Origin: Syncephalis fuscata
Lineage: Eukaryota; Zoopagomycota; Zoopagomycetes; Zoopagales; Piptocephalidaceae
Length of the DNA: 64,000 nt
NCBI GenBank assembly: GCA_025786725.1
Contig: JAHLTZ010000014.1
Span: 310,001 to 374,000, forward strand
Direction of reading: 5' to 3'
Part shown: positions 26,090 to 55,519 of the stretch, one piece after another
Numbering within the stretch: the first letter of the stretch is position 1
Layout of the letters: every line of letters begins with the position of its first letter
Program-made: the position numbers and the translations under genes
The notes under the pieces: generated by a model
The model's input: the letters and a program-made list of their open reading frames with translations, nothing else
What the model was told of the DNA's origin: nothing
Database searches by the model: none

Positions 26090-27700
26090 TTACAAATAGT
26101 ATGTTTTATGGTATATCGGTGTTACCATTGTATATTCAAATAAACATTGTAGTTCGAAATCACTAGATATGCGCATACTAATATCTGTACGTTTGTTGCA
26201 TGCAATTGGCCAATTCAAGTTAGTTTTGATAGCATCAACGATTGAGCGAATATTTATTATTAGAAATGCTATTGTGGTCATATCAAAAGCAATAGTATTT
26301 TTAGACAAGTTGTTTGTAAGTTAAACAAGCTATTCATTCATGTAACTATAATGTGGTGTTAAATCGAATGCATGAAATCCATCAGTGTAACTTTATTGTT
26401 AAGAAACTATAGCTGGTTTATGCAAAACAGTGTACATCTGTAAAAAGTGCAAATCTAGTGCACTAGTCTTGCTGTTGTATCGACGTTAGGAAGTGTCTGA
26501 ATGCACGCAGATACTAGGATTGAGTTTGTTGGCGAAAACAGCACAAAGACATAGCAGTAATTAGCATGTTGTTGTAGAACCAATAGATTTAGTTTGCATC
26601 GTATAAGCGAGTTGTGTAATAATACAGTACGCATTAATGGATGGATTTTACTACATATTTACTGGATGATAATACTATCGCGTCATCTATCTAATTGTCA
26701 GGCCAATTAAAGCAAAATTATGTTACATGCTATCACATCATCGATATGTTGGTATAAGTATGATTTGAGCCATCATGTGAGCATGTTGTTGCTGACTCGC
26801 ATTGCACGTTAATGATATAAAATATACAAAACAGTATATTGGTATTTCTGCATAATTATATGTTTAAATAGACTATAAATGTACACAGCTAACAGTGGTA
26901 CCAGCATCACACTCTGCTGCCTACCCATTACTACTGCACTCTGTTGTCTGCTCTATTTGCTTGTCTTCATAAATCAATATCAACACGAAGCTTTCTATTG
27001 CCATTGACTGCTCCATCATCATGGCCTTTATGGTCAATACAGCCATTGTGGATACTAAGCCAGTTCTAGCCCTTTGTAGTATGCTATAATTACGATTGAA
27101 ATAACTAGCTATTTATTAACTAACGTTTTATGTAAATCTAACGTTGCTAGCTCATAAGCTGTATTGTATATTAGTTAGTTATGTGATATTTAGTTTGTTA
27201 TGCTTTTAATACCCTGTATTAACAGTTAGCAAGTAACTTGTTAGATTAATCAGCTATGTGCTAAATACATGTTATACATCATTATGTTTAATGATTTCTA
27301 CCAACAAGTCGTAAATGCAATTGTATATTAATTAAACATGCATTAATTACAAGCTATAGACCATGTATGTTTAATAATTTGTATAATAGTTGGTAAGTGG
27401 CATTGTATATCAACCAACTATCCACTAAACATATACCATGTAGTTCATGCGCTTAATAACAATATAAGAGGCTGTAAGTGGTATTGCATGCTACGGTTCA
27501 TACGTTAATTATGTAAAATACGCTGTACATATTTATAAATACAGTCTAATAGAGTCTCCTAAGACATTGCCAATGCTAATGTGATTGGACTGCTACTTTG
27601 ATATATTTTATGTATACGTTTAGCAGCAAGCAAGACCATTTGGCAATTGCCGCTTATTCTGTTTACATATCAAGTTCTACTCAATGCTCCAATTTATTCA
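26090..27700 (+). repeat. Dispersed element family 1, copy B (decayed micro-exon gene cassette)
   Basis: It aligns by eye with copy C over most of its length. Shared blocks include CTTGCTGTTGTATCGACGTT (26466 on), the pre-ATG block AAATCAATATCAACA, a 94-nt first exon, GTAAGT-type units with donors near 27229, 27311, 27393 and 27474 (81-82 bp apart), and the 3' block AAGACCATTTGGCAATTGCC then ACATATCAAGTTCT (27625-27675). The left boundary is approximate. Confidence 0.72.
26985..27089 (+). pseudogene. Small secreted peptide, family 1 member B, start codon lost (ATG to ACG)
   Basis: The first exon is exactly 94 nt (26985-27078), as in copies A and C, and encodes a related signal peptide (KLSIAIDCSIIMAFMVNTAI). 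The start codon reads ACG. Downstream, microexon-like triplets CTC, TTA, GTC, TTG and GCT sit at the expected places. Two of the five have a ruined signal: donor ATAAGC after CTC, and acceptor AA before GTC. A terminal acceptor (AATACAG) and TCTAA follow. Loss of the start codon and splice sites makes it a probable pseudogene. A near-cognate start cannot be excluded. Confidence 0.7.
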
Positions 27701-32900: not shown

Positions 32901-33504
32901 AAAACTGTTTTTATTTTTGCTCTAGCACTATTATTAATAGATGGCGACTAATCTCGCTCAGCTTGCCCATTAGACTATATTTATTTATTTAATTGATAAA
33001 AGAAATAATATGTATAAAAATATTGGAATACAAGCAATTCACTGAGTGATGCATCACATTATTGCATTATTCAATGTAAATCTTGCAAAACATTTTATAT
33101 GGGATCATTTAATGAATGCTATACTCAAATTGACTTGTGTCAGTGACTAATACAATATCTTTTTACAAGTTTGATATCAATACATCTGCATGATTAACAT
33201 TTGTTAGTCACTAGATGCAAATCAAACAATTGTATACCTAATAGCTTGATTACATACAATTAAAACAAAATCATGCATTTATTACTAAAAGTCTGCATAG
33301 CCGAATAGGCACAACTAAATGCAAGCTTGCTAACAATGTAAAAACATGATTAAAAGCTGAATAGCCCGGGCATTGGTTGGAACTTGATATGTGCATGAAC
33401 TAGGCGGTAGTTGTCAAATGGTCTTGATTATTGTCGAATGCATACCTAAAGTATATAGAACTAGTAGTCCAACTATACCATCAATGCTAATGTTTTGAGA
33501 ATTG

Positions 33505-34260
33505 TGGTTATTCTATGTTTATAAATATGTACAACGTATAATATATGATTAGTGCATAAATAAAAAATATACAAAGCCACTTACAAGCTATTAATGTCAG
33601 ATTATTAAATAAAGTATATAGCACGTGTTTAGTATATATTTAGTTGATATACAGCATCACTTACATTCTATTAATACAAGTCATTGAACATAAAAAATGC
33701 ATGAAATACGTTTAATACGTAGTTAATTGGTATACAACGTTACTTACCGCCTAGTGATGCAGATTATTAAAAATACAAAAAGCATGGTATATGTTTAATA
33801 CGTAGCTAATTTATAAACGATACTACTTACCAGCTATTAGTGTCAGATTATTGAACACATAAAGTGTATGGCGTGTAATTAGCAAATATTTGATTAATAT
33901 ACAATACTATTTACCACCTATTAACATCAAGTTATTGAACATACAAAGCGTATGGTATATGTTTAGTGCATAGTTAATTGATATACAACGCCACTTACGA
34001 CCTATTAATACAGGTTATCAAACGCATAAAGTGTATGGCATATGTTTAATAAATAGCTGGCCAATATACAATGCCACTTACCAACCATTGGTGTCAGCTT
34101 ATTAGACACACATAGCGTATGGCATATGCTTAGTAAATAGTCAATTAGTATATAATGTCACTTACAGCCTATCAATGCAGACTATTAAGCATACAAATGT
34201 ATGGCATATATTTAGTTTACAATTAGTTAATATATAATGCTACTTACGATCTAGTAATGT
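33505..34260 (-). repeat. Tandem array of nine 80-84 bp intron-plus-microexon units
   Basis: Nine donor motifs (GTAAGTG or close variants; CACTTAC-like on the plus strand) start at plus positions 33578, 33658, 33741, 33824, 33908, 33992, 34075, 34159 and 34241, a spacing of 80-84 bp. Each unit in transcript direction has the donor, a conserved middle with CTAAACATATGCCATAC, a branch-like CTGACA or CTGCAT, TTAATAG, and then three variable bases before the next donor. The conserved parts keep 70-90% identity by eye, while the three bases differ in every unit. Confidence 0.88.
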
Positions 34261-34719
34261 CAATTTGGTAATTTAGATGTTATTTAATTAGCTAAGTAAC
34301 TAATAAATTTCATTGTGATCTACCTCCTATTGTTGCAAATCCAGTACATCGGTATTTTTAATATAGTATTTTATTTATTTAATGCTAAACTTACTTTTAG
34401 CTAATGGTGCTGATTTACCCATTACACATTAACAAGCAGTCATTAATTAGCATAGCAATAAACACAAACTTCCAAGACTTACAGACTGGTTACATGCATA
34501 TAACAACATAGTATAAGTGATAGAACAGCGGCCCATATTCACGACTTACCGTCTAATGTCATAATTAGTTAACCATAATGTCAATTGACACATCAATTAA
34601 TATATTTATTCTAACTGCAACATACCACGACGGATTATATTTGGCCTAGCATCCACTATGGCTGTACTGGCTACAAAAGCCACGACGAAGGTGCAGACGA
34701 CGGCAATGGAAAGCTTCAT
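33511..34719 (-). CDS. Predicted 15-exon micro-exon gene for a secreted peptide precursor (family 1 member C)
   Basis: Exon 1 (34719-34626, 94 nt) encodes a signal peptide, MKLSIAVVCTFVVAFVAST, then VDARPNIIRR and the first base of a codon. Thirteen microexons follow: ACG 34552-34550, TCT 34485-34483, CTAAAA 34400-34395, GAG 34326-34324, ATC 34250-34248, GCT 34168-34166, TTG 34084-34082, GTC 34001-33999, GTG 33917-33915, CTG 33833-33831, GCG 33750-33748, AAT 33667-33665 and CTT 33587-33585. Joined in phase they give DVSKRDRFGRAGES, and the terminal exon at 33512 completes a TAA at once. Introns are 64-82 nt with GTAAGT-type donors. The one acceptor that is not AG is GG before TTG. Dibasic RR and KR suggest Kex2-type processing to a short peptide. 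The exon model is inferred; transcripts are needed. Unspliced, the frame stops after 37 residues (34606). Confidence 0.62.
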
Positions 34720-54460: not shown

Positions 54461-55519
54461 ATGCAGGCCATCAAATGTGTTGTTGTTGGTGACGGGTACG
54501 TATAATTGGACGAGATAGGGCGGTCAAACCACCAGTATGCAACAGATGAATGTGCTGTGGCCTGTTGGTGTTTGAAACGTGTTGTATATGCTAGTAAGAA
54601 ATACGCCTTTGAACAGCGTTGATCTGGCATGGCTATATGCTCTTATTGGCGGCAACAACGATGACAGCACTACCAATGCCACAGCAGCAGGTAGTAGTCA
54701 TACTACCCTGTATCTGCAGCATACAAGGCTCAATTGCAGCTTAATGAACCATATATAGATACTCGTGATACTAACTTGTTTTTTCTCTTCTTTTCTATCA
54801 TTGATATTTATAATATAGTGCCGTCGGTAAGACGTGTCTGTTGATTAGTTATACTACCAATGCATTCCCCGGCGAATATATTCCTACTGTGTAAGTAATA
54901 GCAATAGGCAGACTATAGCGCGATAGTAAATGCATACATCGAATTGAACTAACCAATGTATGCTAATAGCTTTGACAACTACTCGGCCAACGTAATGGTC
55001 GATGGCAAGCCCATCAATCTCGGTCTATGGGATACTGCTGGTCAAGAAGATTACGATCGTCTTCGTCCACTCTCTTATCCACAGACCGATGTATTTCTGA
55101 TCTGTTTCTCGCTGGTTGCGCCATCATCGTTTGAAAACGTCCGCACCAAGGTATGTCACACTACGGTCGCCTTATTCTATTCTAGGCCATTTGGTCTAAC
55201 TGACGCATTACTATTTTATTGTACTACAGTGGTATCCGGAAATTACACATCATGCACCCAATATTCCAGTCATCCTAGTCGGTACCAAGTTGGATTTGCG
55301 TGAAGATCGCGATACAATTGAAAATTGCGCGAAAAACGTCTAGCACCCATTACGTATCCACAAGGTTTACAAATGGCCAAGGAAGTTCGTGCAGTTAAAT
55401 ACCTTGAATGTTCAGCGTTGACACAAAAGGGTCTCAAGAATGTGTTTGACGAAGCCATCCGTGCCGTACTCTGTCCGGTGCAGCCCAAGAAAGCAGGCAA
55501 GAAGTGCATGATTCTTTAA
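54461..55519 (+). CDS. RAC1: Rac1 small GTPase, one apparent base deletion
   Basis: Four exons: 54461-54495, 54819-54890, 54970-55150 and 55230-55519. The product starts [20 protein letters not shown] (P-loop), then [20 protein letters not shown] (effector region), [31 protein letters not shown] and [17 protein letters not shown], and ends with a polybasic stretch and the CAAX box CMIL, suited to geranylgeranylation. It is Rac rather than Cdc42 by [17 protein letters not shown] and TYPQG. Rac controls actin and polarised growth. At 55321-55324 the expected EKLREKR needs one more A than is present. Intron 1 is unusually long (323 nt) for this genome. Confidence 0.96.

Follow-up and report, generated by a model that had tools for sequence, protein, structure and literature searches.

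Can the mature part of a peptide be encoded in exons of a single codon each? The question is raised by a locus of Syncephalis fuscata (Zoopagomycota, Zoopagales, Piptocephalidaceae), a member of a genus described as mycoparasitic (PMC10386755). The locus lies on the minus strand, at 33511..34719, of the 64,000-nt stretch of DNA analysed here (the window). The original prediction, made from this stretch alone, had proposed a 94-nt signal-peptide exon followed by 13 tiny segments, twelve of 3 nt and one of 6 nt, each flanked by splice sites and all in the same phase.

Reading the minus strand from 34719 to 33511 confirmed these coordinates and counts base for base. Exon 1 (34626..34719, 94 nt) begins at 34719 and translates as MKLSIAVVCTFVVAFVASTAIVDARPNIIRR plus one base; it comprises a hydrophobic, signal-peptide-like N-terminus, a pro-region ending in RR and the first base of the next codon. 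The array that follows (33513..34625) reads as 14 introns with 13 coding segments between them: ACG (34550..34552), TCT (34483..34485, behind a CAG acceptor), CTAAAA (34395..34400), GAG (34324..34326, donor GTAGAT), ATC (34248..34250), GCT (34166..34168), TTG (34082..34084), GTC (33999..34001), GTG (33915..33917, donor GTAAAT), CTG (33831..33833), GCG (33748..33750), AAT (33665..33667) and CTT (33585..33587). The introns measure, in order, 73, 64, 82, 68, 73, 79, 81, 80, 81, 81, 80, 80, 77 and 72 nt, the last one stopping at 33513. The terminal exon (33340..33512, 3' limit approximate) supplies with its first two bases the rest of a TAA codon, at 33511. Its 3' region resembles, by eye, that of other members of the family described below, including the intron-free member L049. 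The predicted spliced coding sequence is 138 nt long, is open until this TAA, as had been claimed, and translates as MKLSIAVVCTFVVAFVASTAIVDARPNIIRRDVSKRDRFGRAGES*. A second dibasic pair (DVSKR), whose KR is encoded jointly by the third and fourth segments, precedes a short predicted peptide, DRFGRAGES.

Splice-like sites flank every segment. Intron 1 opens with GTATGT and the donors after the segments are GTAAGT, apart from the single GTAGAT and GTAAAT; the acceptors are TAG or CAG, with the sole exception of a TGG before segment 7 that also occurs in the 98%-identical paralog L030. Since this acceptor is non-canonical, segment 7 may be skipped, and the frame, which is open with or without it, would be kept. 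Exon 1 and all the other sites are intact. Tandem Repeats Finder delimits a period-83 repeat of intron-plus-codon units (minus strand, 33566..34262, 68% matches), so the four proximal segments indeed lie outside the tight array. The intron size is ordinary for this genome, as originally proposed, because 79 nt is also the length of two introns in a Rac-like gene of the window (54891-54969 and 55151-55229, boundaries set by eye). The array introns have the features of ordinary spliceosomal introns, namely GT-AG ends and a size usual in the genome. An Rfam search of the window gave no match and a tRNA scan of the window found none.

Several single-base runs are shorter in the last intron when L030 is compared with the window gene, possibly through decay or assembly error. 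Two other copies of the family were noticed in the window, both on the plus strand. One, at about 26944-27700, has an ACG start, a broken exon 1 frame and downstream array-like units with weakened splice sites; the other, at about 1766-2200, has its ATG and exon 1 intact, is followed by only about two unit-like segments and looks truncated.

The S. fuscata assembly (28.95 Mb, 299 contigs) was then examined for further members. An exon 1 DNA search gave at least 40 scored matches from 290 candidates, and a signal-peptide query at least 150 from 345 candidates. The exact junction of exon 1 and intron 1, CGTCGTGGTATGTT, is present in 95 copies and is absent from a backwards-read control. Two consecutive units of the form ATAG-NNN-GTAAGT-(50 to 78)-TAG-NNN-GTAAGT occur 2,498 times (control 0), while the same pattern with 4-nt or 5-nt segments does not occur at all (controls 1 and 0, respectively). 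Within the 40 genes modelled below, this strict pattern captures 462 pairs against 857 single-codon exons, which extrapolates to a possible genome total of roughly 4,600 such exons. On this point the original prediction needs amending, as the window gene belongs to a large family.

The 40 exon 1 DNA matches, the window gene among them, were modelled with a dynamic-programming chain in which exon length was free between 1 and 60 nt and no frame rule was imposed. When the chain was seeded with site matrices taken from units with 3- or 6-nt segments, 858 of 952 internal exons in 42 sequences were 3 nt long. When it was seeded blindly with generic GTAAGT and TAG signals under a strict exon cost, the figure was 811 of 853. 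With a low exon cost the blind chain overran gene ends and serves as a length spectrum only; even there 889 of 2,375 exons were 3 nt long, and no other length was represented more than 67 times. In many genes the terminal acceptor was initially placed about 30 nt too late and was reset by a rule derived from reading the last intron. The final 40 models hold 948 internal exons; 857 of these are 3 nt long, with 3 to 45 such exons in a gene (median 22). Their 988 introns, for which the models require GT or GC and AG, carry GTAAGT donors in 762 cases and TAG acceptors in 905, and 788 are 74-82 nt long. Neighbouring introns within an array are similar to each other (adjacent mean 0.62-0.82 in seven genes). 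Twenty models are free of irregular exons; the other 20 each include one or more exons whose length is not divisible by 3 or exceeds 15 nt, for which decay, insertions, assembly errors and model errors cannot be separated. The exon 1 frame is broken in two members, L009 and L037. In ten genes (L010, L011, L028, L031, L033, L034, L038, L040, L041 and L042) some array introns are swollen by a common inserted sequence, perhaps a short transposable element, which on translation gives FKWCYTALFS-like strings.

The coding capacity of the joined micro-exons was evaluated on 618 exons of 26 dereplicated genes, taken as runs of at least eight regular exons in succession. The joined frame contains one stop in 607 codons, compared with 21.0 ± 3.6 when exon order is permuted within runs (minimum 9 in 5,000 permutations), and 69 cysteines, twice the expectation of 33.8 ± 4.2 (maximum 49). 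The two alternative frames contain 5 and 55 stops. Without dereplication (41 runs, 800 exons), one stop and 89 cysteines are found in 784 codons, compared with 26.2 and 44.6. These results indicate that the predicted joined frame is coding. Open-frame lengths did not separate micro-exon members from intron-free ones.

The translated exon 1 of family members has a hydrophobic, signal-peptide-like N-terminus, and 38 of the 40 members carry an RR pair at residues 30-31, the frame being shifted in the remaining two. This conserved pair points to exon 1 as a putative prepro region and to the array as the mature peptide, with cleavage presumed to occur between them. Several predicted products are six-cysteine mini-proteins, such as those of L045 (AGGSEECRVCLENCKKNGWSAFWCHTWSTCSRACA) and L039 (DCDDCKKRCRPWASSYLKCVTYCDKQCNNPQP). 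Short peptides preceded by a second dibasic pair form another kind, to which the window gene belongs, and further products are rich in proline and arginine (L032).

Two paralogs, L049 (contig C236, public protein P0001) and L050 (contig C57), encode their whole product in a single open frame. Their cysteine spacings, 2-3-11-5-3 and 2-4-8-3-3 respectively, are resembled by those predicted for the spliced products of L045 (2-3-9-5-3), L039 (2-3-9-3-3) and L014 (2-3-9-3-8). At the last junction L045 has GCG, a 72-nt intron and then CATAATCGATGGTTTCAAGA, and L049 reads GCATAATCGATGATTTCAAGA, which is exactly the predicted join. When the spliced L045 protein was aligned to the genome, as a query carrying about two wrong C-terminal residues, it matched continuous reading frames best (residues 1-65 of 67, E = 1.1e-15, 62.1 bits), compared with 47.7 bits on its own exon 1. 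Against shuffled sequences, three of nine peptides of the cysteine class (L014, L017 and L045) hit one intron-free paralog at p = 0.001; L027 reached p = 0.03 and the other five 0.065 or weaker, in 26 comparisons without correction. Four peptides outside the cysteine class showed no similarity to the intron-free paralogs in this shuffle test. Apparently intron-free members were also seen in close, oppositely oriented pairs (C275:3971-5101 and C146:124986-126135).

Substitution rates were compared between micro-exons and their surroundings. In four pairs of 90-97% identity, introns differ at 8.0% of positions, donors at 1.8%, acceptors at 1.5% and the codon positions of exon 1 at 0-1.6%. The corresponding micro-exon values (46, 38 and 22% for positions 1, 2 and 3) are inflated by out-of-register units, because tandem units can align out of register over whole alignments. 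Hence a register-safe set was used, consisting of 113 units from 14 non-independent pairs in which the register is fixed by the flanking introns. Here codon positions 1 and 2 had changed in 17 of 226 cases and position 3 in 1 of 113 (Fisher p = 0.009, the pairs not being independent), and flanking introns differed by 0.92%. Positions 1 and 2 therefore change about eight times faster than the flanking introns and position 3 at the intron rate, a difference that suggests diversifying selection on the amino acids of the micro-exons. Among 153 within-gene unit pairs from 13 genes, the three codon positions differ at 65, 63 and 33%, and the flanking introns at 3.9%. From this contrast, some process acting on the triplets, or homogenisation of the introns, may contribute to triplet turnover beyond ordinary selection.

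Closely related genes also differ by whole units. L039 and L043 show 13 differences in 1,776 aligned bases, one 641-nt gap equal to eight units and one 1-nt gap; L018 and L020 show 23 differences in 2,280 bases, a 162-nt gap that corresponds to two units and three small gaps (1-2 nt), with one damaged donor besides in L020. Within genes, triplet identity climbs from 3% to 35% with intron identity, so that even between units whose introns are at least 98% identical the triplet is the same in only 35%, and highly similar introns lie close together. Units seem to duplicate and disappear whole, with the frame surviving.

Protein searches with the spliced L045 product and with P0001, whose sensitivity is limited to shared 5-residue words, matched only four S. 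fuscata proteins. The L045 query of these searches and a query made of the mature part of L014 carried about ten wrong C-terminal residues each. The genome search with the mature L014 query returned no candidates and is uninformative, given these ten residues and the shortness of the query. Pfam gave nothing above cut-off for P0001, L050 and the predicted L045 and L027 products, and a PDB sequence search with P0001 gave nothing at E ≤ 1. The structure predicted for P0001 from a two-sequence alignment has helices in the mature part and a mean pLDDT of 63, too weak for a fold search. By eye, the public S. fuscata family proteins P0002 and P0004 seem to run through a unit donor into the intron, their KLYC.. 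matching GTAAGTTATATTG... Judging from these two, public gene models may miss micro-exons.

Four other readings of the window locus or its family were weighed. The array is a tandem repeat, the inclusion of even a single 3-nt exon is difficult and 20 of the 40 models are irregular, all of which would suit a non-coding minisatellite within a single long intron, with exon 1 spliced straight to the terminal exon and the triplets serving as spacers between decoy sites. This is very improbable, because the open frame and the cysteine excess depend on exon order, the faster change is confined to codon positions 1 and 2, and the intron-free paralogs have the same cysteine framework. The same coding signal (frame, cysteines, rates and paralog similarity) makes it scarcely credible that the segments are recursive-splicing points from which a long intron is removed in steps, leaving no codons in the mRNA. 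Acceptors and donors 3 nt apart do make stepwise removal likely on steric grounds, but classical ratchet points are zero-length exons within very long introns.

Another reading accepts the codons and reverses the history: the intron-free genes would be ancestral, and similar introns would have been inserted codon by codon, by an introner-like gain that left the product unchanged. Array introns are indeed more alike than the triplets they separate, as seen in the low triplet agreement between units with nearly identical introns. Yet insertion at precisely the same point in codon after codon, behind the first base and regardless of sequence, is hard to explain, units are gained and lost whole, similar introns lie near one another and triplet identity increases with intron identity; we regard this history as improbable. 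The last alternative concerns the window copy alone, which could be decaying within a functional family, being silent or skipping segment 7. The TGG acceptor is common to L030, whose model has further irregular exons, and the window contains two other copies that have decayed. On the other side, the remaining sites and exon 1 are intact and the frame stays open whether segment 7 is included or not, and we consider decay of this copy somewhat unlikely.

The best-supported reading of the window locus is therefore the one first proposed, a peptide gene of serial, phase-symmetric single-codon exons; it has gained support from paralogs of like plan, thousands of units, the open frame, the cysteine framework of the intron-free paralogs and the codon-position-specific rates. 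Very probably, the window gene belongs to a large S. fuscata family whose mature codons each form a separate exon. The anatomy, the family, the open frame, the intron-free paralogs, the codon-position rates and the whole-unit indels were all obtained computationally. Counted against this reading are the 20 irregular models, the broken exon 1 of L009 and L037, the TGG acceptor of the window gene, the fact that only three of nine cysteine-class peptides reach p = 0.001 against an intron-free paralog, the non-independence of the 14 rate pairs, and the possibility that the intron-free members came first.

On this basis we propose that the exon 1 product consists of a signal peptide and a pro-region up to a dibasic site, and that the whole product would be secreted and processed by a Kex2-type protease. 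Each array unit would consist of a spliceosomal intron of about 78-80 nt and an exon of usually one codon, nearly all mature codons being interrupted after their first base. Recognition across the intron is likely, because the array introns are of ordinary size, short, with near-consensus GTAAGT and TAG signals. Their excision in vivo would probably proceed one by one, stepwise, since 3' and 5' sites 3 nt apart could hardly be bound together. The exonic side of the donor would be free to vary while the intronic side stays near consensus. Because every unit adds a 3-nt exon in the same phase, gain, loss or skipping of a unit would preserve the frame and the peptide could be changed codon by codon. 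The simplest role of such peptides in a mycoparasite would be action against fungal hosts or competitors. It is also possible, and we suggest it only tentatively, that the arrays are an engine of peptide diversity, in which each codon sits in a frame-neutral, recombination-ready cassette. Duplicating, deleting and reshuffling units would then edit the secreted peptides one codon at a time, and further in-frame variants of a single gene may arise when units are skipped in the RNA.

The original prediction had likened the locus to schistosome micro-exon genes (MEGs) and aphid bicycle genes; the likeness holds for the plan, and no sequence relation was found in the protein searches. As far as the source describes them, MEGs of Schistosoma mansoni have a signal-peptide exon, many short exons that are mostly multiples of three, and secreted, variable products; the 35 genes have exons of 6-81 bp (3-81 in the abstract), mostly 15 bp, and introns of 0.1-5 kb (PMC10526429). 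On that description they share with the S. fuscata family a coding sequence made mostly of short symmetric exons (here of 3 nt in 857 of 948 internal cases), and differ from it in their longer exons and in intron size, which is 64-82 nt in the window gene and about 78-80 nt family-wide. No schistosome protein was among the matches of the spliced L045 and P0001 searches, at their sensitivity of shared 5-residue words. Aphid bicycle genes are described as a large, fast-evolving family of putative effectors with about 17 exons on average, many of them small internal exons that almost all start from codon position 2 (PMC9168663). The small internal exons of the window gene and of the joined runs likewise begin at codon position 2. 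The same two protein searches returned neither a bicycle homologue nor any homologue outside S. fuscata. Bicycle exons are well above 3 nt in length, and bicycle proteins are characterised by CYC motifs.

That single-codon exons can be included by a spliceosome is shown by the isolated 3-nt micro-exons of animals and plants. There, one such exon lies in an otherwise normal gene, whereas up to 45 per modelled gene are predicted in S. fuscata, forming most of the mature coding sequence. Conotoxin-type precursors combine a conserved signal and pro-region with a hypervariable, cysteine-rich mature region, and their introns are more conserved than the mature codons; the predicted S. fuscata products share this plan, but the conotoxin mature region is not known to be divided at each codon. 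Introner elements and stwintrons are families of similar introns in one genome or adjoining introns; unlike the arrays, neither is known to interrupt one codon after another by units that come and go whole. Kex2-processed secreted fungal peptides are a further comparison for the RR pair at residues 30-31, where cleavage is presumed.

No description of micro-exon arrays in Syncephalis, or of serial single-codon exons, was found in the open-licence literature, and for this reason a series of single-codon exons forming most of a mature peptide appears to be new as an architecture, subject to RNA evidence. If splicing is confirmed, the family would represent an extreme of gene architecture, in which mature peptides are built from one-codon exons, up to 45 in a modelled gene. 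The arrays would allow a direct test of how the spliceosome handles acceptors and donors 3 nt apart, tens of them in succession. They would also suggest that introns may serve as frame-neutral handles by which a protein is altered residue by residue. Finally, since two protein searches returned only four family proteins and the exon 1/intron 1 junction is present in the genome at least 95 times, much of the putative secreted peptide repertoire of this mycoparasite would be missing from its annotation.
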